From: Anaerolineales bacterium
GTDB lineage: Bacteria > Chloroflexota > Anaerolineae > Anaerolineales > UBA4823
NCBI GenBank assembly: GCA_025057645.1
Contig: JANXBJ010000002.1
Coordinates: 1-64,000, forward strand
Reading direction: 5' to 3'
DNA: 64,000 nucleotides
Shown: one piece after another, positions 5,404 through 30,285 of the stretch
How the letters are laid out: each line of letters begins with the position of its first letter
Numbering within the stretch: position 1 is the stretch's first letter
Position numbers and translations under genes: made by a program
Notes under the pieces: generated by a model
Told to the model about the DNA's origin: nothing
What the model saw: the letters and a program-made list of their open reading frames with translations, nothing else
Database searches by the model: none

Positions 5404-5793
5404 GATAGGTCTCCTCTTGCGGCGTAGGCCTAGGTCAATGACTCCTCTGGTTTGGAGGACGACTCATATGCTTCCGTAGGTGAGTGAGCCTACAGACCTG
5501 CCTGACTGCGGTTCGAGCGGACGCTTCTCTGCCTCCCGGAACTCAGACAGAGATACCCTCTGCGCTGGTGTGTGATTCTCTCTGCCGAAGGAGGGAGGAA
5601 CAGGGTGATTGAATGTGTAAGGAAGATAAAGGACGCTGCTAAGTTGCGGCCTTTTGCAATTTTGCCGCTTAATTGAACCTTAAAAGCCCCGGGTTGTATG
5701 ATCCTAGGAGCGCGCGGTATAATCTTTTCGGGACGCAGATTGCAATCTTGGGGATCGGGGTCTTTTTTGTTTTAAGTCGAACGGGAGAGGTTG
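5404..5793 (+). promoter_or_regulatory. 390-bp gap with a promoter for the regulator gene
   Basis: No convincing gene lies here. A sigma-70-like promoter is visible: TTGTAT at 5694-5699, an 18-bp spacer and TATAAT at 5718-5723. It would start transcription near 5730. The leader carries the palindrome GATTGCAATC (5739-5748) and a T-rich run before the ribosome-binding site GGGAGAGG at about 5782-5789. Confidence 0.6.
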
Positions 5794-6474
5794 ATGCAGG
5801 GAAGGATTCTCTGGATTGAAGCCAAGCGTGCGACAAGAGAGAGCCTGATTGCTCAATTGGAGAGGCGTGGCTTCGAGGTCTGTGTTGTCGAGAGCGGTAA
5901 GGCAGCGTTGCAAGCGCTGGAGAACTTCGACCCGGATGTCGTTATTGTGGATGCGGTGTCGCTGCGTTCCAGTGGAAAGCGCATTTGTCGCTCCCTGCGC
6001 GAGAGATCGAACGGCCTACCGATTGTGCTGATCGCTGAGGACAAGTCCAGGGTGGACGAGGAGTGTGTGACGGTCACGCTGGTTGTGCCCTTCACCATTC
6101 GTAAGTTGCTCAACCGAATCATTCCTCTCCTGCCTTCCGAAGGCCAGAGGATGCTCCGCCGCGGCCCGATCCACTTGGATTTGGAGCTCAGGCGGGTGCG
6201 CTGCCACGGTCGTGAGAGCCGCCTGACCCCTCGCCTGACGAAACTCTTGAAAATCCTCTTGCTTAACGCCGGCAAGGTCGTTGAGCGTGCGATGTTGTTC
6301 CGCGAGGTTTGGGAGACGGACTACCTCGAGGACACTCGCACGCTGGATGTGCACGTTAGCTGGCTGCGCAAGGCCATTGAGCTTGATCCGAAGCGTCCTC
6401 GATATCTGAAAACGCTCCGAGGTGTGGGCTATCGCTTGGACATTTATCCCGAGGCAAACGCTGAAGAAGAGTAG
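5794..6474 (+). CDS. Orphan OmpR/PhoB-like response regulator with degenerate receiver
   Basis: The product has 226 residues. The first ~115 form a receiver-like domain. The remainder is a winged-helix DNA-binding domain of the Trans_reg_C type, with DVHVSWLRKAIELDP and a terminal TLRGVGYRL. The phospho-acceptor aspartate is kept (VVIVDAVS). The usual N-terminal acidic pair is replaced by WIEA, and the conserved switch lysine before PF is absent (LVVPFT). Phosphorylation is therefore doubtful. No histidine kinase is adjacent. The ATG at 5794 is preferred to the TTG at 5791 because of its spacing from GGGAGAGG. Targets are unknown. Confidence 0.85.
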   Translation: MQGRILWIEAKRATRESLIAQLERRGFEVCVVESGKAALQALENFDPDVVIVDAVSLRSSGKRICRSLRERSNGLPIVLIAEDKSRVDEECVTVTLVVPFTIRKLLNRIIPLLPSEGQRMLRRGPIHLDLELRRVRCHGRESRLTPRLTKLLKILLLNAGKVVERAMLFREVWETDYLEDTRTLDVHVSWLRKAIELDPKRPRYLKTLRGVGYRLDIYPEANAEEE

Positions 6475-6504
6475 AAGGGGTCACCCGAAAGCGGTGACCC
6501 CTTT
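6475..6504 (+). terminator. Hairpin terminator after the response regulator
   Basis: A perfect 11-bp stem AAGGGGTCACC/GGTGACCCCTT (6475-6485 with 6493-6503) and a 7-base loop directly follow the stop codon. The T tract after it is short, but the stem is strong and could also serve the convergent minus-strand gene. Confidence 0.75.
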
Positions 6505-6559
6505 GGTTGGTCAACACCAGCAGCAGAAAGACAAGCAGCGATCGGAGGGAGCTATAAAG

Positions 6560-7879
6560 CTATTTGCCGAATTTTGACTGGAGAATGTCCTGCAGGGTGG
6601 GCTGACCGATCTCTTGCAGTTCGTAGCGCACGCGCTGGAAGGGTTTCTCGATCCGAATCACCCGGCTCAGGTCGATCGGTGTGCCAACAAGCACCAAGTC
6701 GACCTCGGCGCGGCGGATGGTCTCTTCGAGCTCGCGAATTTGCTCTCCGCCGTAGCCCATGGCGGGAAGAACTGCACCGGTAGTCGGGTATCTTTCAAAG
6801 GTTGCCTTGATCGAACCCACAGCATAAGGGCGAGGGTCAACGATTTCGGCTGCGCCAAAGCGTTGCGCAGCCACCCAGCCGGCACCGTAAGCCATCTCTC
6901 CGTGGGTCAAGGTCGGGCCATCTTCGATCACGAGCACCCGTTTTCCTCGAATTGCGGCCGGATTGTCGACGAAGATCGGTGAGGCAGCCTCGATGACCAC
7001 GGCATTCGGGTTCAACTCGCGCAGGCTGTTGCGCACTTGGATCACGGCCTGCGGGTTGGCCGTGTCGACTTTGTTGATCACGAAGACATCGGCCGCACGG
7101 GCGTTAGCTTCCCCCGGGTGGTAGGTTCTTTCGTGGCCCGGGCGGTGCGGGTCGGCAACCACAATATGCAGGTCTGGCTTGTAAAAGGGCAGATCGTTAT
7201 TGCCCCCGTCCCACAGGATGATATCCACCTCCTGCTCTGCCTGACGGAGGATGCGTTCGTAGTCGACCCCGGCATAGACGATCAAGCCATTGTCGAGATG
7301 GGGTTCATACTCCTCGCGCTCCTCAATGGTGCACTGCTGCTCGTCCAGGTCTCGGTGACTGGCAAAGCGTTGCACGGCTTGTTTGGCAAGATCGCCATAG
7401 GGCATTGGATGGCGAACGGCAGCCACCCGGTAGCCCATTTGGCGCAGAATCTTTGAGACCCGCCGAGTGGTCTGGCTCTTCCCGCAGCCGGTGCGTACGG
7501 CGCACACCGCTACAACCGGCTTTGTGGACTTTAGCTGGGTGTGACGGGTGCCCAACAGGGCAAAATCTGCACCGGCCGCCAGAACTTGCGAGGCCTTGTG
7601 CATCACGTGTTCGTGAGGCACATCTGAGTAGGCAAAAACCACTTGATCCACTTCTTTTTCTCGGATCAGTTTGATCAAATCGTCCTCGGGGTAGATAGGG
7701 ATTCCCCGAGGGTATCTTGGGCCGGCTAGCTCCGGTGGGTATAGCCGTCCCTCGATGTTAGGAATCTGGGTGGCGGTGAAAGCCACCACTTCGACCTCGG
7801 GGTTGTTGCGGTAAAACACGTTGAAGTTGTGGAAGTCACGACCAGCCGCCCCCATGATCAGAATTCGAGTAGCACACAT
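6560..7879 (-). CDS. Cyclic 2,3-diphosphoglycerate synthetase-like GTPase
   Basis: The product has 439 residues. The start at 7879 (MCATRILIMGAAGRD) is chosen because GAAGGAGC precedes it and because an upstream extension would overlap argS. It has a Rossmann-like N-terminal domain with GAAGRDFHNF, then a P-loop NTPase core containing VRTGCGKSQT. Further on are a DGGNND motif and an NKVDTA-type nucleotide motif. This layout matches the family named for archaeal cyclic 2,3-diphosphoglycerate synthetase, which also has many bacterial members of unproven function. It starts 29 bp after argS ends, so the two are probably co-transcribed. Whether it makes the thermoprotectant cDPG here cannot be told from sequence. 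Confidence 0.75.
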   Translation of the reverse strand: MCATRILIMGAAGRDFHNFNVFYRNNPEVEVVAFTATQIPNIEGRLYPPELAGPRYPRGIPIYPEDDLIKLIREKEVDQVVFAYSDVPHEHVMHKASQVLAAGADFALLGTRHTQLKSTKPVVAVCAVRTGCGKSQTTRRVSKILRQMGYRVAAVRHPMPYGDLAKQAVQRFASHRDLDEQQCTIEEREEYEPHLDNGLIVYAGVDYERILRQAEQEVDIILWDGGNNDLPFYKPDLHIVVADPHRPGHERTYHPGEANARAADVFVINKVDTANPQAVIQVRNSLRELNPNAVVIEAASPIFVDNPAAIRGKRVLVIEDGPTLTHGEMAYGAGWVAAQRFGAAEIVDPRPYAVGSIKATFERYPTTGAVLPAMGYGGEQIRELEETIRRAEVDLVLVGTPIDLSRVIRIEKPFQRVRYELQEIGQPTLQDILQSKFGK

Positions 7880-7908
7880 CCGCTTTGCTCCTTCAAGCAA
7901 GATTATTT

Positions 7909-9720
7909 TTACATGACTTCTGGGGGAACAATCCCCAACATGCGCAATAAATTGGCCAAGGCCTGCTTGGCTGCGGCGACCAACCTTAAGCGAGCGGCTC
8001 GCATGTTTTCGTCCGCCTTTAGCACGGGGCATTCGGCATAGAAATCGTTGAAGGCCCGTGCCAGCTCGTAGGCCAAGTTGGTTAGGTACAAGGGCCTCAT
8101 TTCCTGCGCTGCCTTCTGCACTTCGCCGGGCAGGCGCGAGATCCAGTCGATCAACTGGATTTCGGTCGGGTGTAGTTCATAGGTGGGCAAAACCGAAGGG
8201 GGTAGGGGAGTTTCCATCTTGCGCAGGATGGAATTAGCCCGCACGTGAGCATACTGAATATAGGGGGCCGCCTGCCCGTTGAAATCCAATGCCGCATTCC
8301 AATCAAAGGTGACGATTTTGGTCGCATCGCGAGCCAGCATAGGATACTTGATCGCCCCGAGGGCCACAACCCGCGCCACTTCTTCCATCTCTTGCGCAGA
8401 GAGGTGGGGATTTTTCTCGCGCACCACTTCGAGCGCTCGTTGGCGCGCTTCTCGGATTAGGTCTTCTAGCAAAACCACCGTCCCCTCACGGGAGGCGATG
8501 GTAACGTTGCCCGGCAAATTCACCACCTCGTAGCTGAAATGATAACAGCGCTCTGCCCAGTCGGGATGCCCCATCAGAGCCAAGGTTTTGTAGATTTGCT
8601 GGAGATAGAGCGATTGGCGCACATCGACCACATAGACCGAAAGGTCAGGGTTAAACAGTTCGAATTTTTTGAGCGCCAGAACCAGGTCCTTTGTGGAGTA
8701 CAGGGAGGTTCCGTCGGAGCGCAAGATCACCAGCACCCGATAGGTTTCCTTCTCCAAGCCCAACAGCTCGTCAATCCGCACGATGACCGGGCCTCGGGGA
8801 CGTTCATCAATGGCAATTCCCTTTCGGACCAGCTCTTCCACTAATTCCTGACCCGGTTTTTCTAACTCGTGATCGTAAAAGATGTGATCAAACCGCACCC
8901 CTAGGATGGCATAGATTTGCTCGAAACCTTCTAATGACCATTGACGGCTTTTTTCCCAGAGGGCAAGGATTTCGGGATCGCGCTGGTCCCAACGGGCGTA
9001 GAGTTGACGCACTTCGCTCTCGAGTTCGGGGTTCTCTTCAAGTCGCCGGTTTGCCTCGGCATACAAATCTCCCATCCACCGCGTTTTGTCTTCGCCCGGT
9101 TCCTCTCCTGCGTGGTATTTCTGGTAATTCCACAACCACTTAATTACGTGCAGTCCGGTGTCGTTGATGTAGTTGGCGCGGATCACTTCATTCCCGGCAG
9201 CTTCTAGGATGTTACACAAGGCGTCCCCAAGCACGACATTGCGCAGGTGGCCGACATGAAAGGCCTTGTGAGTGTTGGGTTGAGAAAATTCCACTAAAAT
9301 GCGCTTTCCTGTTGGCTCACCCCAGCCAAAACGCTCCCCCTGTTCAAGAACGGTATCCACCACCCGCCGTGTGAACTCCAAGGGGTCAAAGTAGAGGTTT
9401 AAGTACCCATTGACTGCCTCGACCCGCTGAAACCCGCTTGGCAAGCTGAGCAACTCTCTGACCCGGCTGGCAATTTGGGCTGCAAGTTGCGGAACCGGCA
9501 AGGGGGTGTGTCCGGCGGCGCGTTGCTCTCTCGCCCATTGGGCAGCTAGTTGAAAAAAAGAGGTGGAGATGCCCCATTTTCCTGCGAAGGGAATCGGGTT
9601 CCATTCAATCTTCGCTTTGGGATAGGGATGTTGGGCTAGAATGGACCGGATTTCGTTGGTAATTTGCTCTTGTTCTCGTTCGAACATCAGGTAACCTTGG
9701 AGGATGATCGGATTGGCCAT
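7909..9720 (-). CDS. argS: Arginyl-tRNA synthetase
   Basis: This is a cytoplasmic class I synthetase of 603 residues charging tRNA-Arg. The order is an N-terminal additional domain, then the catalytic fold with a HIGH-like signature in QPNTHKAFHVGHLRN, an ArgRS-typical YSTKDLVLAL segment, and a C-terminal alpha-helical DALR anticodon-binding domain ending LLRMLGIVPPEVM. Length is normal for the family. The ATG at 9720 has a poor ribosome-binding site. A second ATG at 9687 (MFEREQEQ) would also fit the usual ArgRS N-terminus, so the start is uncertain by 11 codons. A TATAAT on the minus strand (9743-9748) lies 22 bp upstream. I saw no T-box motif in the leader. Confidence 0.97.
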   Translation of the reverse strand: MANPIILQGYLMFEREQEQITNEIRSILAQHPYPKAKIEWNPIPFAGKWGISTSFFQLAAQWAREQRAAGHTPLPVPQLAAQIASRVRELLSLPSGFQRVEAVNGYLNLYFDPLEFTRRVVDTVLEQGERFGWGEPTGKRILVEFSQPNTHKAFHVGHLRNVVLGDALCNILEAAGNEVIRANYINDTGLHVIKWLWNYQKYHAGEEPGEDKTRWMGDLYAEANRRLEENPELESEVRQLYARWDQRDPEILALWEKSRQWSLEGFEQIYAILGVRFDHIFYDHELEKPGQELVEELVRKGIAIDERPRGPVIVRIDELLGLEKETYRVLVILRSDGTSLYSTKDLVLALKKFELFNPDLSVYVVDVRQSLYLQQIYKTLALMGHPDWAERCYHFSYEVVNLPGNVTIASREGTVVLLEDLIREARQRALEVVREKNPHLSAQEMEEVARVVALGAIKYPMLARDATKIVTFDWNAALDFNGQAAPYIQYAHVRANSILRKMETPLPPSVLPTYELHPTEIQLIDWISRLPGEVQKAAQEMRPLYLTNLAYELARAFNDFYAECPVLKADENMRAARLRLVAAAKQALANLLRMLGIVPPEVM

Positions 9721-10278
9721 GGAGGCCCTTATTTCCTTGCAAATTATAATCCCTCCGAAAAGGGGGGAGATAAACCTCTGAAGGCCTCTTCACCCGTAAT
9801 CAAGCAGCAGAACTTGTCCTGAGCTAGCACCCTGTTTGAACGCCGATTGAGTAGGGGAAGGCATCGGCTGTACGTGGCGATCGGCTTAGGCTTGGCGGTA
9901 GAGGTTGAAGCGGGATTACTCATACCGGCAATTTGCGGCGCTGGTCGACCAGGAGTGTTGGGGGAGTTCGGCTGACCACCGGAAACCGGTTGCCAGTGCT
10001 CAAACTCATCTTAGAAAGAAGCGGAAAGCGCTCGTAGAGCATAGTTTTTGTTGACCCTGAAGGGACTCATCGGGGATCCTCGGTTTTCGCTCCGAGCTCG
10101 GTGCAGAAAACCTTTCCTGCGCTATTGACTTTAGTTGGATATTTTCTATAATGAATTATGGGGGATTATTGGTAATTGTTAGTGGTTGGATAATCAATAA
10201 AAACTTGATCCTGAGTGCACGAGCCCGGGATCGAGCGTTTTTCTCAGTTCCAAGCAGTGGTCCTTCGGGAGAAAAAAC
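9721..10278. other. 558-bp divergent intergenic region between argS and a lipoprotein gene
   Basis: There is no credible coding frame. It carries a minus-strand TATAAT (9743-9748) suited to argS and the plus-strand promoter described separately. The middle (about 9790-10090) shows nothing I recognise. Confidence 0.6.
10125..10152 (+). promoter_or_regulatory. Sigma-70-type promoter of the first stalked lipoprotein gene
   Basis: TTGACT (10125-10130), a 16-bp spacer and a consensus TATAAT (10147-10152). The predicted start is near 10159, giving a leader of about 120 nt. The paralogous gene near 23.4 kb has the same arrangement (TTGACT, 16 bp, TATACT). Confidence 0.8.
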
Positions 10279-24459: not shown

Positions 24460-25623
24460 ATGAAGAAGAGGGTGTGGATTTTGGGTTTGGGACTGCTTGC
24501 TGCTCTGGCGTGTCGCCTGCTGAAAGCGCCGACTACCCCGGTTCAGATGGATAGTGCCCAAGCAACCCTCATAGCCTTACGGGTGCAGCTTACGCAACTG
24601 GTGCTTCAACAGCCTTCGGCTACTTTGCCTCCGAGCGATGCAACCCAACCGCCCAGCGAGGTCCCTGTTGAATCGCCCACCGAGACGCCAACCTTGGTTC
24701 ACAGACTGGTGCCCGGCGAGGTTGCCCGACTGCGCACCGCAGTTTTTGACATGATCAGCGGAGATACCGCCCGTCAAGGGGTGAGTAATCAGCCGCCTGG
24801 AGGGGATGAGTCTCGATATAACCTCTACGAGCGTCCCTTTAACTCCCAAACTATGGCTCTCTTTTTCCCTGACCTAGATATTTGCGAGGCCAAGATCGGA
24901 CCGGACAACCTATGGATGTTCGTCACTATTTATCTGTATGGCCTAAGAAGTGCGAGTAATGCCCCACAAGGCGTCTATCGACTAGAGTTGGATTTGGACA
25001 TCGATGGACGGGGCGAGTGGCTGTTTGAGGCGCGTTCCCCCCTCGTCGAAGAGTGGCGTGTAGAGGGCGTGCGGGTGTGGGAAGATACGAGTAACGACGT
25101 AGGTGGCGAGCGACCTTGTGACGCCGATCCCCCGCAAGCGGAGGATAGTTACGATCGCCTAGTTTTCGATCAGGGATACAATACCGAAGATCCGGATGCC
25201 GCCTGGGCGCGCTACCAGCCTAGCTCGCCGCCCGCTGTGCAGCTTGCGTTCAAGTACAGCTTGATTGGAAATGACAACAAATTTATGTGGGGGGTGTGGG
25301 CGGACCAAGGGGTTGATCAGCCGCAGTGGTACGACTACAAAGATCATTATACTTACGAGGAAGCCAGCTCTCTTTTCCGTTCGAGTCGGTATTATCCTAT
25401 CAAGCAGATCGCTGAAGTGGATAACACTTGTCGTTGGACTTACGGCTTTGAGCCCAAAGGAGATGAACCTTGTTTGTGCGCAAGCGGTAAAAAGCAACCT
25501 ACTCCAACTCCGATGTCGCCCACAGAAACCTCTACTCGGTCTGCCGAAACGCCTGTCCAGCTTCCTCCGACTCCAACGGAATTTCCCCAATACCCTGGAG
25601 ACATTGGCGGTTATGTGTTTTAG
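24460..25623 (+). CDS. Lipoprotein with helical stalk, interrupted by in-frame TAG inside an SdrD-B-like domain
   Basis: The product has 387 residues to a TAG at 25621-25623. The signal peptide ends LLAALAC, a good lipobox. The stalk-like segment (QATLIALRVQLTQLVLQ) echoes the two paralogs nearby, followed by a Pro/Thr linker. A beta-rich domain of ~230 residues contains YRLELDLDIDGRGEW and WGVWADQG. A second PTPTPMSPTETST linker then leads into GDIGGYVF, the first strand of an SdrD-B-like repeat. The reading frame continues past the TAG as DMNGNCTRDEGDGG, which is exactly how such a repeat proceeds. The stop therefore truncates the protein inside a domain. The ribosome-binding region GAGGGGGAAG precedes the ATG. 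Confidence 0.8.
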   Translation: MKKRVWILGLGLLAALACRLLKAPTTPVQMDSAQATLIALRVQLTQLVLQQPSATLPPSDATQPPSEVPVESPTETPTLVHRLVPGEVARLRTAVFDMISGDTARQGVSNQPPGGDESRYNLYERPFNSQTMALFFPDLDICEAKIGPDNLWMFVTIYLYGLRSASNAPQGVYRLELDLDIDGRGEWLFEARSPLVEEWRVEGVRVWEDTSNDVGGERPCDADPPQAEDSYDRLVFDQGYNTEDPDAAWARYQPSSPPAVQLAFKYSLIGNDNKFMWGVWADQGVDQPQWYDYKDHYTYEEASSLFRSSRYYPIKQIAEVDNTCRWTYGFEPKGDEPCLCASGKKQPTPTPMSPTETSTRSAETPVQLPPTPTEFPQYPGDIGGYVF

Positions 25624-25893
25624 GACATGAATGGAAACTGCACCCGGGATGAAGGAGATGGAGGGTTCGGCCGCTTGGGTGTAACTCTCAGACGAGGCGC
25701 TTGTCCGGGTGGGGGAGTAATAGCAACTACGACCACCGGTGCTTGGAGACGCTACTTCTTCTCTGGATTGCAGCCCGGGCAGTATTGTGTGCTCCCGGAT
25801 AATCCAGGGGTGCCACTGACACCCCGAAGCGCCACGGTTGAAGTTCGAAGCGGCACGACAACGGACAACGTTAACTTTGGCTATTGTCCCTAG
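25624..25893 (+). pseudogene. 3' remainder of the amber-interrupted lipoprotein gene (SdrD-B-like domain)
   Basis: This is in frame with 24460-25623, beyond the TAG. It encodes DMNGNCTRDEGDGGFGRLGV, then a beta-strand pattern with WRRYFFSGLQPGQYCV, and ends NVNFGYCP before a TAG at 25891. The GYVF-x-DMNGN continuity across the stop shows that the two parts were one gene. An ATG at 25627 has no convincing ribosome-binding site. Nonsense mutation, sequencing error or readthrough are the alternatives. Confidence 0.72.
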
Positions 25894-26293: not shown

Positions 26294-27127
26294 ATGGCAA
26301 AAGCCTATTGGTCGGACAAGTGGGTCGTTATCAGTGGGGGCTCTAGTGGCATCGGTTTAGCGCTGGCAAAACAGCTGGCGGTGGCCGGTGCTCACCTCTG
26401 GTTAATCGCTCGTGGGGAGGATCGCTTGCAACTGGCGCTGCGCGAGGTTCAATTGAGAGCACAGAGTCCTTCTCAGCAGTTCGGTTACACGGCTGCCGAT
26501 CTCACCGAGGCAAAACAAGCTGAAGCAGTCGCAGAGCGCGTGCTGGAGAAGGCAGGCCGGGTGGATGTTCTAATTAACTCGGTTGGGGCAGCTCACCCCG
26601 GTTATATTCAAGAGTTAACGCTAGACATCTTTCACTGGATGATGGCGGCCAATTATTTCGCTCCATTGTATCTGATCAAGGCTTTGCTTCCGACGATGAT
26701 CGCTCAAGGCGGAGGACAGATCATCAACATCGCTTCTGCGGCTGCGTTGGTGGGGGTGTTTGGTTACTCGGCTTACGGAGCAGCGAAATATGCCCTGGTC
26801 GGTTTTAGCGAGGTCTTGCGTGCGGAAATGAAGCCCCATCGGATCCGCGTCTCGGTTGTCTATCCACCGGACACCGAAACGCCCCAGCTCGAATACGAAA
26901 ATCGATTCAAGCCGCCGGAGACAAAGGCGATTTCGGGGACGGCAGCTCCTCTAAGTCCGGATCAAGTGGCTCGAGCCATCCTGAAGCAGGCGGCGCAGGG
27001 AACGTTTGCGATCTTCCCTTCCTGGGATGTGCGTGTAATCGCTTGGCTGGTTAGGCTCTTTCCTCAATCTCTCGTCTTTGCGGCCCTAGACGCGCTAGCC
27101 CGCAAAGGTAAACAGGCCGGAGGTTAA
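26294..27127 (+). CDS. 3-ketodihydrosphingosine reductase-like SDR (KDSR-like)
   Basis: A 277-residue classical short-chain dehydrogenase. NADP-binding SGGSSGIG is at residues ~13-20, followed by an LIARGEDRL segment. The catalytic Ser lies in NIASAAALVG and Tyr161/Lys165 in SAYGAAK. After the active site the protein matches eukaryotic KDSR closely: VYPPDTETP, ENRFKPPETKAISG, LSPDQVARAILKQAAQG and a hydrophobic C-terminal tail (VIAWLVRLFP). KDSR reduces the 3-keto sphingoid base made by serine palmitoyltransferase. The SPT-like gene starts 2 bases after this stop codon, so substrate and neighbour agree. A generic SDR role remains possible without assay. Confidence 0.8.
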   Translation: MAKAYWSDKWVVISGGSSGIGLALAKQLAVAGAHLWLIARGEDRLQLALREVQLRAQSPSQQFGYTAADLTEAKQAEAVAERVLEKAGRVDVLINSVGAAHPGYIQELTLDIFHWMMAANYFAPLYLIKALLPTMIAQGGGQIINIASAAALVGVFGYSAYGAAKYALVGFSEVLRAEMKPHRIRVSVVYPPDTETPQLEYENRFKPPETKAISGTAAPLSPDQVARAILKQAAQGTFAIFPSWDVRVIAWLVRLFPQSLVFAALDALARKGKQAGG

Positions 27128-27128
27128 C

Positions 27129-28307
27129 ATGGATATCTTCGAAAAGTGTGCTCAATTTACGATCGTGCGAGAGGCGGTTGCAGGCGGTTACTATCCTTAC
27201 TTTATTCCCCTCTCCGAGAACGAGGGCAGTGAGGTAATGTATGGAAATCATCGCCTGATCATGTGTGGCTCGAACAACTATCTTGGCCTCACCACTCATC
27301 CAAAAGTAAAGGAGGCGGCGATCGAGGCCATCCGGCGTTATGGGACAAGTTGCACAGGCTCACGCTTTCTCAACGGAAATTTGGAGCTTCATGAACGTCT
27401 AGAGCAGGAATTGGCCGAATGGGTGGGTAAGCCTGCTGCCTTGGTTTTTTCGACTGGAATGCAAACCAACCTTGGCACAATCAGCGCACTGGTGGACCGT
27501 TCGGACGTAGTCATCTTGGACAAATACGACCACGCCAGCATCGTTGACGGTGCACGTCTGGCTTGGGGTGAGACCAAGCGTTTCCGTCACAACGATATGC
27601 AAGATTTAGAGCGGGTGCTGAAGTCGATCCCGGAGGAGAAGGGCAAACTGGTGGTTGTTGACGGGGTTTACAGCATGGAGGGCGATATTGCCCCCCTGCC
27701 GGAGCTGATTGAACTTTGTCGCCGCTATGGAGCTCGCCTGATGGTGGACGACGCTCACTCTCTGGGGGTCTTGGGTGGCGGAAAGGGCACTGCGGCTCAC
27801 TTTGGGGTGACCGAAGGGGTCGATCTGATTATGTCTACTTTTAGCAAGTCCTTTGCCTCATTGGGTGGGTTTATTGCCGGCGAGGAACAAGTGATCGAGT
27901 ATATACAGCATCATGCCAGAGCGCTGATCTTCAGCGCCAGCATCCCCCCCGCAAACGCTGCCGCAGCCCTAGCGGCTTTGGAAGTGATGCGTCAGGAGCC
28001 AGAGCGGATTGCCCGCGTCAACGCCATCGGCGAGCGCGTTCGGACCGAACTAAAGCGGATGGGTTACCAAGTTGGCAATTCCCAGACCCCGATCGTGCCC
28101 ATCATTATCGGTGACGATATGCGTACCGTGTTTGCCTGGAAAGCCCTCTTCGAGGCGGGGTTGTTTGTCAACCCGGTCCTTTCTCCCGCTGTCCCCGCAG
28201 GGCGACAACTGTTGCGCACGAGCTATATGGCTACTCACACCGATGAGCAGATCGATCGTGCCTTGGAGCTGTTTGAAAAGGTTGGCAAGCAGATCGGGCT
28301 GATATAG
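27129..28307 (+). CDS. Serine palmitoyltransferase-like alpha-oxoamine synthase
   Basis: A 392-residue PLP enzyme of the SPT/KBL/AONS family. The PLP lysine is Lys240 in STFSKSFASLGG. Features resembling bacterial SPT (Bacteroides type) rather than 8-amino-7-oxononanoate synthase are the N-terminal YYPYF, MCGSNNYLGL, YGTSCTGSRFLNGNLELHE, DHASIVDGARL, VVDGVYSMEGD, MVDDAHSLGV and YMATHTDEQIDRA. The family condenses serine with a fatty acyl thioester to 3-ketodihydrosphingosine, the first step of sphingolipid synthesis. GGAGG lies inside the end of the preceding KDSR-like gene, so translation is coupled. No biotin or threonine-catabolism genes are nearby. The SPT assignment is strong by motif and context but not proven. 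Confidence 0.82.
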   Translation: MDIFEKCAQFTIVREAVAGGYYPYFIPLSENEGSEVMYGNHRLIMCGSNNYLGLTTHPKVKEAAIEAIRRYGTSCTGSRFLNGNLELHERLEQELAEWVGKPAALVFSTGMQTNLGTISALVDRSDVVILDKYDHASIVDGARLAWGETKRFRHNDMQDLERVLKSIPEEKGKLVVVDGVYSMEGDIAPLPELIELCRRYGARLMVDDAHSLGVLGGGKGTAAHFGVTEGVDLIMSTFSKSFASLGGFIAGEEQVIEYIQHHARALIFSASIPPANAAAALAALEVMRQEPERIARVNAIGERVRTELKRMGYQVGNSQTPIVPIIIGDDMRTVFAWKALFEAGLFVNPVLSPAVPAGRQLLRTSYMATHTDEQIDRALELFEKVGKQIGLI

Positions 28308-28313
28308 ACCTAG

Positions 28314-29111
28314 ATGAAGGATCGCCAGCGCACTTTCCGCGTCGAAGGGGTGGTATTGCGACACTTGGATTGGGGGGAGGCCGATCGTTTGGTGATGCTT
28401 TTCGCTCGGGACCGGGGGAAGCTGCAAGCCCTCGCCAAAGGTGTTCGCAAAGCTCGTTCTCGCAAAGCAGGCCATCTGGAGCCGTTCAACCGAGTCAGTT
28501 TGCTCTTAGCCCGAGGACGAGATTTACCCCTGATTACCCAGGCCGAGACGCTTACTTCCTATCCTGTTTTCCATGAGGACCTTCTGCGCATGGGTTATGG
28601 GGCTTATGTCCTCGAACTCATTGACCGCTTTGCTGTCGAAGGGGAGGCAAATGTCGCCCTCTACCAACTGCTGGTTGAAACTCTGGAGCGTCTCGGCTGC
28701 AGTTCAGAACCTTTCTTCGAATTGCGCTACTTCGAAGTAAAGTTGCTCGATCAAGTGGGTTTCCGCCCGGAGTTTTTCCGCTGTGTGGTTTGCAACGAGT
28801 CGATACAGCCTCGGGATCAATTTTTTTCCTGCGAGCTAGGGGGCGCAGTCTGTCCTAATTGTGCCGTAGGCCAGAGGGCCCTTCGACCGGTTTCGATGCA
28901 AGCCCTGAAGTATCTGCGGCACTTCCAACGCAGTTCCTATGTTGAAGCCCGCCGCGCCAAGATTCCCCTGCCTATCCTTGAGGAAATGGAGTCCCTTTTA
29001 GGGCTCTACGTACAAACCCTTCTGGAACGCAATTTGAATACCCTCCAGTTTATCCGATCCATTTCCCAGCTCAGTCGACTCCAAGTCACTCCCCCGACTA
29101 AGGACTCCTAG
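28314..29111 (+). CDS. recO: DNA repair protein RecO
   Basis: The product has 265 residues. The N-terminal OB fold starts TFRVEGVVLRHLDWGEADRL. The helical C-terminal domain holds a four-cysteine zinc site (CVVC...C...CPNC at about residues 158-183). RecO works with RecF and RecR to load RecA on SSB-coated gaps. It begins 6 bp after the SPT-like gene and is probably its operon partner, though not in function. Confidence 0.92.
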   Translation: MKDRQRTFRVEGVVLRHLDWGEADRLVMLFARDRGKLQALAKGVRKARSRKAGHLEPFNRVSLLLARGRDLPLITQAETLTSYPVFHEDLLRMGYGAYVLELIDRFAVEGEANVALYQLLVETLERLGCSSEPFFELRYFEVKLLDQVGFRPEFFRCVVCNESIQPRDQFFSCELGGAVCPNCAVGQRALRPVSMQALKYLRHFQRSSYVEARRAKIPLPILEEMESLLGLYVQTLLERNLNTLQFIRSISQLSRLQVTPPTKDS

Positions 29112-29217: not shown

Positions 29218-30285
29218 CTAAGCCAAGTAGCCCTCTTTGCGTTGCAGTTCTTCGAGCACTTCCCAGAAGGCTTGGGCGGCTTGTTCTACGGCCGCATCGT
29301 CGATCCAATAATGGACCACAATTCGAAAGCGGTGAGGTTCGATGGCTCCGACCAAGACACCGCGTTCCCGCAAGGCTTCGCAGACTCTCTGGGTGGTGAT
29401 CGCAGAGCGAGATTCGAGTTGGGCAAAGATCATGTTGGTCGCTGGTGAGCCCTCCTCGATCACCAGGCCGGGGGCGCCCTGTAACTTTTGGGCTAATCGC
29501 TTGGCTCGCGCATGATCTTCAGCCAACCGATCGACCATGGTTTCCAATGCCACGATCCCTGCAGCGGCCAACACGCCGGCTTGGCGCATTCCACCCCCCA
29601 ATTGCTTTCTCACACGGCGTGCTCGCTCGATAAATTCGTGGCTGCCGCAGATCAGCGACCCCACCGGAGCGCATAGAGCTTTGCTGAGGCAAAACGTCAC
29701 CGAATCGAAAGGTGCAGCCAGTTCTTTGGCAGGGACCCCCAAGGCAACGGCAGCGTTGAAGATGCGCGCACCGTCCAAATGGGTGAGAAGTCCATGTTCC
29801 TTGGCAAATTCCCCAACTTGGCGGCAATATTCCGCAGAGAGAGCCACACCTCCGCAGCGATTATGCGTGTTCTCCAGAGCAATCAGGCGCGTGGGAGGCT
29901 GATGGATATCCTCTGGGCGGATGGCAGCCTGTAAGTGCTCCAATTTTATGGTTCCATCAGGCTGATTGGGAAGCTGGTGGGAGTGAATTCCTCCCAGTGC
30001 CGAGATTCCCCCGGCTTCGTATAGAAAAGTGTGGGCTTTATCTCCCACGATCACCTCGTCGCCTCGCTGGCAATGGGCTAAAATTGAGGCGAGGTTTCCC
30101 ATTGTGCCGGAGGGGACAAATAGAGCCGCTTCTTTGCCCATCATCTCGGCGGCCATCGCCTGGAGACGATTGACTGTCGGGTCTTCGCCGTAGACGTCGT
30201 CTCCCACCTCTGCGCGCGCCATTGCTTCGCGCATCGCCGGAGTTGGTTCGGTGACGGTATCGGAACGTAAGTCGATGAACTTCAT
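29218..30285 (-). CDS. Low-specificity L-threonine aldolase
   Basis: A 355-residue fold-type I PLP enzyme that splits L-threonine or L-allo-threonine to glycine and acetaldehyde. It opens with [20 protein letters not shown] and contains [13 protein letters not shown]. The PLP lysine sits in [19 protein letters not shown] and [11 protein letters not shown] are family signatures. GGAGG precedes the ATG. The start lies 1 bp after the rluD stop, so it is the last gene of the ZIP-lspA-rluD-aldolase run. Glycine and serine made here could feed one-carbon metabolism elsewhere in the window. Confidence 0.92.

Follow-up and report, generated by a model that had tools for sequence, protein, structure and literature searches.

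A serine palmitoyltransferase-type gene paired with a KDSR-type reductase gene in an Anaerolineales genome: a candidate lineage-specific sphingolipid module

The gene pair and its setting

A 64,000-nucleotide stretch of an Anaerolineales genome (Chloroflexota; contig JANXBJ010000002.1), referred to in its whole length as the window, was analyzed with regard to two neighboring genes, the first encoding a short-chain dehydrogenase/reductase (SDR) and the second a pyridoxal phosphate (PLP) enzyme of the alpha-oxoamine synthase family, which may together serve sphingolipid synthesis as 3-ketosphinganine reductase and serine palmitoyltransferase (SPT). The pair, proposed in an earlier note made from the sequence, is real, both open reading frames (ORFs) being intact and on the same strand (Table 1). 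The motifs quoted there for the two proteins were all found, and Lys240 of the second protein, named there as the PLP lysine, is aligned with the corresponding residue in the SPT of Sphingobacterium multivorum; the gap between the genes had been given as two bases and is in fact a single one (C at 27128). The genome that holds the window (3.1 Mb, 63 contigs, 95.75% complete) has its nearest named relatives among Anaerolineales/Anaerolineae metagenome-assembled genomes (MAGs; loci L007-L009), whose SPT is 92-96% identical to that of the window.

Table 1. Features of the gene pair and the gene that follows it, in window coordinates.
Feature	Position	Strand	Basis
Classical SDR of the KDSR type, 277 aa (proposed 3-ketosphinganine reductase)	26294..27127	+	Pfam adh_short, S-Y-K, GGSSGIG, TSC10 alignment
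KDSR-type C-terminal block YPPDTETPQLEYENRFKPPETKAISG, codons 190-215	26861..26938	+	Consensus of SPT-adjacent SDRs, part common to TSC10 8jat
Shine-Dalgarno-like GGAGG within the end of the SDR gene, 5 bases ahead of the SPT ATG	27119..27123	+	Sequence
Serine palmitoyltransferase-type alpha-oxoamine synthase, 392 aa	27129..28307	+	NF047600 SPT score, 3a2b match, SPT clade 98/97
Lys240 codon, PLP lysine in STFSKSFASLGG	27846..27848	+	Alignment with 3a2b, BioF and KBL
recO, 6 bp 3' of the SPT gene	28314..29111	+	RecO_N and RecO_C domains

Identity of the PLP enzyme

Profile scores, signature residues and phylogeny support the assignment of the PLP enzyme to SPT. Among NCBIfam models, it scores highest against the Bacteroidota SPT equivalog NF047600 (530.9 bits; cut-off 640), followed by the beta-proteobacterial SPT model NF047599 (404.3; cut-off 500) and by bioF (403.5; cut-off 426.45), while the SPT model NF047603 scores 326.2 (cut-off 670) and the KBL models PRK06939 and TIGR01822 score 353.8 (cut-off 460) and 285 (cut-off 493). 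Judged by these scores, the enzyme is not a member of the named subtypes NF047600, NF047599 and NF047603. Its top solved relative is the S. multivorum SPT 3a2b, matched near full-length with 422.8 bits. The lysine context TFSKS and a C-terminal arginine segment are the defining marks of SPT. The former surrounds Lys240 and is common to the four SPT references compared, with TFGKG in E. coli BioF and TLGKA in KBL at the same place; the latter is present in the window SPT as SPAVPAGRQLLR.

The phylogeny that had been suggested as a check on this enzyme came out in favor of SPT. In a tree of 42 rows, a branch supported at 98/97 holds 36 of them, including all 29 Anaerolineae rows and 3a2b together with proteins of Parabacteroides, Prevotella, Aureispira, Priestia, Rubrobacter and Roseomonas, and leaves outside BioF, KBL, two paralogues from the window genome, the protein L115 of a relative and a Thioclava protein. 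Forcing the Anaerolineae rows together with BioF, KBL and the own-genome paralogue L003 cost 20.7 log units and was disfavored by the approximately unbiased (AU) test (p 0.032). The tree was built without HemA and eukaryotic SPT rows, a solved structure stands behind 3a2b alone while the other references are taken as SPT by similarity or gene context, and the long branches of BioF, Roseomonas, Thioclava and KBL call for caution.

On a different reading of the locus, the PLP enzyme would be BioF, KBL or some related alpha-oxoamine synthase, and the SDR would be a ketoreductase of general function, both acting in biotin, threonine or other metabolism. The placing of the enzyme under all curated SPT cut-offs with bioF as its third-best NCBIfam model, and the great breadth of the SDR family (223 NCBIfam models match the window SDR), speak for it. 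Nevertheless, we regard this reading as quite improbable in view of the supported SPT clade and the AU result, of the separate paralogue L003, which itself passes the TIGR01825, PRK06939 (KBL) and bioF cut-offs, of the third oxoamine synthase in the same genome, and of the class-wide linkage to an extended SDR and a GNAT N-acyltransferase described below, which fits ceramide synthesis better than biotin. A BioF or KBL identity of the enzyme was rejected on scores, residues, tree and AU test.

The amino acid used is a separate matter, as oxoamine synthases vary in it and sequence alone does not fix it. The pair could make a related long-chain amino alcohol, either 1-deoxysphinganine from alanine or the base of a sulfonolipid (capnine-type) from cysteate, and Spt is described as able to take alanine in place of serine (PMC11334938). 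Such a product appears improbable for the window enzyme, against which the solved cysteate C-fatty acyltransferase 28eh of sulfonolipid synthesis scores 243.9 bits. A sulfonolipid identity was set aside on this score, which lies far under that of SPT 3a2b, although the chemistry itself would permit it.

Some further oxoamine synthases were met in these searches. The third such enzyme of the window genome, L002 (G000:C11:568919-570040, minus strand), is 44% identical, has nearly equal SPT, TIGR01825 and bioF scores of which none reaches its cut-off, and groups with L115 of the relative (100/100). An SPT-like gene on a Priestia megaterium plasmid (L132; NZ_CP137804.1, 5001-6215), 51% identical, falls within the SPT clade; the plasmid is typed as mobilizable with a Bacillota host and bears methyltransferase and acyltransferase genes on the opposite strand. 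On a plasmid of Streptomyces sp. NBC_00158 (L252, 109-4146), an SDR and an oxoamine-synthase-type domain are annotated in one protein.

The short-chain dehydrogenase

The window SDR is a classical SDR (Pfam adh_short, 5.1e-49) with the S-Y-K triad and, in GGSSGIG, the G-x-x-x-G-x-G cofactor motif. Its C-terminal block appears to resemble that of 3-ketodihydrosphingosine reductase (KDSR; TSC10 in fungi). In the alignment with TSC10 (8jat), 75 of 231 aligned residues are identical, and of the five PDB alignments listed, two cover the C-terminal region and only that of TSC10 has the motif ENRxKPxxTKxI; the PPDTETP part of the block presumably resembles human KDSR. A profile of SPT-adjacent SDRs had TSC10 as its top single-stretch match in the PDB (178.8 bits), with a higher sum (190.1) for the two-domain protein 2et6.

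This profile rests on 36 of 40 SPT-adjacent SDRs, L011, L048, L092 and the fragment L108 being left out. Their consensus, PPDTDTPQLAYENxxKPPETKAxSG, is matched by YPPDTETPQLEYENRFKPPETKAISG, with P191 and T196 invariant and D193, P197, E202, P207 and E209 nearly so. Regular expressions run over all 40 found PPDT.TP in 20 (strict) or 28 (loose) and EN..KP..T in 26, a weaker picture than the alignment suggests. Among the SDR paralogues of the window genome (17, of which 14 were fetched), none of the eight readable ones has the block.

The earlier note had also ascribed a hydrophobic tail to the SDR, in keeping with eukaryotic KDSR, which has a hydrophobic C-terminal membrane segment. The tail is only moderately hydrophobic (best 19-residue mean 1.50) and has two helices in the AlphaFold model (predicted local distance difference test, pLDDT, 95), so that a membrane span was not borne out. 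The proposed KDSR-type pattern as such held up, and we favor a KDSR-type reading of the SDR because its C-terminal block is common to TSC10 and its linkage to SPT is conserved in the order, as described next.

Linkage of the two genes within the order

The order was sampled with 61 genomes, namely the window genome and 60 relatives, with an SDR threshold of E<=1e-45 and an SPT cut made by eye at a clear gap, by which 29 of 34 matching genomes were kept and five with only 47-48% identical matches were dropped. SPT orthologues occur in 29 of the 61 genomes and the SDR in 28. The two coincide strongly, the SDR being present in 26/29 genomes with SPT vs 2/32 without (Fisher p about 1e-11; neither this nor any of the class counts below is corrected for kinship). 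SPT stands alone in three genomes (G025, G040, G053) and the SDR in two (G015, G031), and 30 have neither. It can be added that the SPT of G025 is cut by a contig end, and that, by match coordinates, SPT overlaps with an HpnA-like extended SDR in G040 and G053.

In 22 of the 26 genomes with both genes, the SDR adjoins SPT on one strand. A second, contig-cut SDR lies beside SPT in G034, and the SDR is on another contig than SPT in G042, G048 and G049, of which the unlinked copies of G048 and G049 retain the C-terminal block. On a wider count of 99 distinct SPT orthologues (108 loci), the SDR was found within 500 bp in 39, and an extended SDR in 6, among which two are weak matches with 31-33% identity to the query; 46 had neither, and contig ends intervened in 8. 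The SDR-SPT pairing is more than chance because 39 of the 99 orthologues have an SDR at this distance; of these neighbors, 38 lie upstream in the same orientation as SPT and one lies downstream in the opposite orientation. Further neighbors of the SDR-bearing loci are mostly unshared, as judged by eye from cluster numbers. Mapped on a tree of 90 of the 99 distinct SPT proteins with that of the window and three references (eight contig-end proteins and one fragment omitted), the neighbor type needs at least nine changes; the extended-SDR label needs 5, of which the starred branches force at least 4.

Within the order, tracking of SPT by the extended SDR was not found at E<=1e-50 (7/29 with SPT vs 8/32 without, recounted by hand), and a GNAT clade strictly tracking SPT was not found in a tree of 76 of 86 matches (10 weak or fragmentary ones left out) and two references, the family at E<=1e-8 occurring in 26/29 genomes with SPT and 17/32 without. 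Two GNAT homologues (L154, G056:C90; L155, G040:C260) group with SPT-linked ones and adjoin, by eye, an NAD-synthetase-like gene and not SPT. An SPT-SDR pair on a contig labelled Coriobacteriia (Actinomycetota; L042, CAIKZH010000131.1) falls inside the Anaerolineae SPT tree, perhaps through a binning or label error or through transfer.

Distribution across the class Anaerolineae

For the class, 120 genomes of at least 85% completeness were sampled, and at most 15 to 20 candidates per genome were scored, so that some members may be missed. SPT was found in 69 of them and the KDSR-type SDR in 15. A class-wide association of the two was ruled out by the counts (9/69 genomes with SPT vs 6/51 without). 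In the nine class genomes that hold both, the genes are adjacent in five (SDR upstream in G000, which is the window genome, G138 and G073; convergent in G071 and G102); in G087 they are separated by 2.4 kb, and in the other three they sit on separate contigs.

KDSR is thus not the class-wide partner of SPT, which across the class tracks instead a CerR/HpnA-like extended SDR and a GNAT family. The extended SDR was found at E<=1e-60 in 85 of the 120 genomes (61/69 with SPT vs 24/51 without) and at E<=1e-100 in 43 (39 with SPT and 4 without); of the 39 genomes with SPT that pass the stricter cut, 8 have it no more than 450 bp from SPT. The GNAT family, first met beside SPT on Rubrobacter and Aureispira plasmids, was found at E<=1e-80 in 68/69 genomes with SPT vs 21/51 without, and at E<=1e-115 in 53 with SPT and 8 without. 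Both strict thresholds were chosen after the output was seen, and the associations hold at the preset ones (E<=1e-60 and E<=1e-80). Among genomes with SPT, the extended SDR at E<=1e-100 accompanies 2/9 of those with a KDSR-type SDR vs 37/60 of those without (p 0.035).

The extended SDRs that were scanned belong to the epimerase/3beta-HSD type, and for the two scanned in NCBIfam the nearest model is HpnA, with a score under its cut-off. Their profile also matches extended SDRs in SPT regions of Roseomonas and Aureispira plasmids, which is weak evidence given how very broad the family is. The models for both families were built from SPT-linked genes and not from Caulobacter references; the extended SDRs may correspond to CerR and the GNATs to bCerS.

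In some class genomes these genes stand close together. On the minus strand of G087 (L253; G087:C19:11000-27000, 5431-9834), the order is SDR, GNAT, extended SDR and SPT, the GNAT and extended-SDR genes overlapping by 4 bp. G160 (L254; G160:C85, 3-3914), counted among the genomes without SPT and holding a contig-cut one, has the same gene order with 4 bp overlaps at the SDR/GNAT and GNAT/extended-SDR junctions; the starts in both runs were chosen mechanically. The SDRs of both bear PPDTDTPQ, and the two runs, each confined to a single strand, are candidate ceramide clusters with both reductase types. In G116 the GNAT is followed after 1.1 kb by the extended SDR and SPT, and in G062 SPT is divergent from the extended SDR and GNAT.

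Possible N-acylation in the window genome

In the window genome, no extended SDR was found at E<=1e-60 or 1e-50. The genome has two GNAT homologues, C11:550063 and C11:655378, which fall in a clade split at 100/100 from that of six SPT-linked GNATs; the latter clade also contains GNATs of genomes without SPT (tree of 36 of 82 rows, the SPT-near GNAT of G173 left out). The eukaryotic LAG1-type ceramide synthase (PF03798) had no match in the window genome, nor in 14 control genomes, which therefore gives no proof of absence.

The sphingoid base could accordingly be an end product or a signal in a lineage without N-acylation, which would suit the lack of an SPT-linked GNAT clade member and of a strong extended SDR among the findings for this genome, and also the class member G138, which has the adjacent pair and no GNAT homologue at E<=1e-80. 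We consider this unlikely, if less so than the two alternatives weighed above, given the two more distant GNAT homologues of the window genome and the presence of at least one homologue at E<=1e-80 in nearly every class genome with SPT. Free long-chain bases are membrane-active, and because of this an N-acylation step appears likelier than a free base.

Proposed pathway

Gene identity, linkage, family membership at the level of sequence and co-occurrence within the window's order are observed, and a pathway can be drawn on them in which the substrates, the acyl donor and the cofactor are predicted. In it, SPT would condense serine with a long-chain acyl thioester, the SDR, probably made from the same message as SPT by coupled translation, would reduce the ketone with NAD(P)H to sphinganine, and the sphingoid base would then probably be N-acylated to dihydroceramide, the presumed product, by an enzyme encoded elsewhere. 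It is likely that the pair makes a sphingoid base in this eukaryote-like, reduction-first order, and the formation of sphinganine appears well supported by sequence for the window genome. The proposal of the earlier note that the organism makes sphingoid bases thus gains support from the SPT tree, the KDSR-type block and the SPT-SDR linkage in the order.

Several observations weigh against this reading. The PLP enzyme lies under every NCBIfam SPT cut-off. In the single-sequence PDB search TSC10 ranks fifth, after 3-hydroxyacyl-CoA and hydroxybutyrate dehydrogenases, and the two fold comparisons are led by HSD17B13, 11beta-HSD1 and other SDRs, with 8jat not among the 50 rows listed of either, within which many classical SDRs tie (Z 31.8 to 32.9). 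The SDR match of G042, which counts among the 26 paired genomes, is interrupted by a stop codon. SPT and the SDR are not associated at the level of the class, and the SPT-linked N-acyltransferase clade was not found in the window genome by profile search and tree.

What the window holds is most likely a sphingolipid module in a lineage-specific form of the KDSR type, because the SDR tracks SPT in the order and not in the class, and because G087 and G160 hold SDR, GNAT and extended SDR together. More tentatively, and at somewhat less than even chances, the order of sphingolipid synthesis may have switched within one class by non-orthologous gene replacement: the wider Anaerolineae would use SPT, GNAT and a CerR-type extended SDR (acylation first), and in the window's order SPT would be joined to the KDSR-type SDR in a reduction-first route like that of animals and fungi, many members, among them the window genome, having lost or replaced the other two partners. 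Of the nine class genomes that have both SPT and SDR, five contain a GNAT that passes the strict cut, which argues against a clean switch of routes. If the switch is true, clusters like those of G087 and G160 would be intermediates, or a sign that both routes can coexist.

Comparison with known systems

The two proposed bacterial routes to ceramide, reduction first and acylation first, have been set out previously (PMC10865984), and the Bacteroides protein BT_0972, a classical SDR for which 3-ketosphinganine reductase activity has been reported, is a precedent for the former in bacteria (PMC9278070). With eukaryotic KDSR/TSC10 (8jat) the window SDR shares the classical SDR type, S-Y-K, GGSSG.G and the ENRxKPxxTKxI block, but it is bacterial, stands beside SPT and has a tail without a convincing membrane span. 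Likewise, Bacteroidota SPT (S. multivorum; PDB 3a2b, 8guh) agrees with the window SPT in the TFSKS lysine motif, a similar C-terminal arginine segment and the same supported clade, whereas the window SPT falls short of the Bacteroidota equivalog cut-off and is paired with a KDSR-type SDR. In two Bacteroidales plasmid records (L133, L136), the divergent neighbor of SPT is a diacylglycerol-kinase-like gene, annotated in the first and recognized by eye in the second. The Caulobacter spt-bCerS-CerR route and its acyl carrier protein (ACP), as described in PMC11087976, PMC11324152 and PMC9386255, are alike in SPT-based ceramide synthesis and in that an extended SDR and a GNAT of the same general kind are SPT-linked in other Anaerolineae, and unlike in that the window genome has no extended SDR at E<=1e-50 and no member of the SPT-linked GNAT clade.

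The earlier note knew of no characterized pathway in this phylum. None was found in the literature searched; Chloroflexota have already been put forward as producers from SPT-like genes and lipid correlations in a Black Sea study, with 218 Chloroflexota MAGs having Spt-like genes and with Anaerolineae correlated with ceramides in deep water (PMC11334938). That study concerns the same phylum and class as the window, its queries were bacterial Spt, bCerS and CerR and eukaryotic Spt, and its main text is without the terms KDSR and ketosphinganine. The proposal has been extended to sediments (PMC12619533), and glycosphingolipids have been correlated with several groups, Chloroflexi included (PMC10667739); the work on Thermomicrobium 1,2-diols, as far as its text was available, draws no link to SPT (PMC2615216). 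A KDSR-SPT pairing or an exchange of reductases in Chloroflexota was not reported in the literature searched, outside which most subscription journals lay. Sphingolipid production by Anaerolineae is already proposed (PMC11334938); what appears new is the pairing of SPT with a KDSR-type SDR and, inside a single class, the exchange of its reductase partner.

Neighboring genes

The recO gene behind the pair, whose neighbor cluster is common to the close relatives L007-L009, is possibly co-transcribed with it and is outside the sphingolipid module. No acyl-CoA synthetase or ACP was recognized by eye beside the pair among ORFs of at least 80 aa, a limit that a smaller ACP gene might escape, and predictions of promoters and terminators were no better than chance level. 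Downstream of recO, at 29218-30285 and in the reverse orientation, there is a PLP gene of the threonine-aldolase type (PF01212, 384.8 bits), for which no sphingolipid link was found. Upstream, at 24460-25893 on the plus strand, a lipoprotein-like ORF stops at 25623 and the next, sharing its frame, opens at 25627; the in-frame TAG sits, by eye, inside one apparent repeat motif, so that either gene breakage or an error of assembly may lie behind it.

Significance

Sphingolipids are a hallmark of eukaryotic membranes. In anoxic waters and sediments, their possible sources have been suggested to include Chloroflexota (PMC11334938, PMC12619533). Since this SPT is present in Bellilinea caldifistulae GOMI-1 and Ornatilinea apprima P3M-1, both strains of named species, an analysis of lipids should be feasible. 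Overall, we present a class in which SPT stands beside either reductase type and sometimes both, which would make the order of reduction and acylation testable by comparing close relatives.

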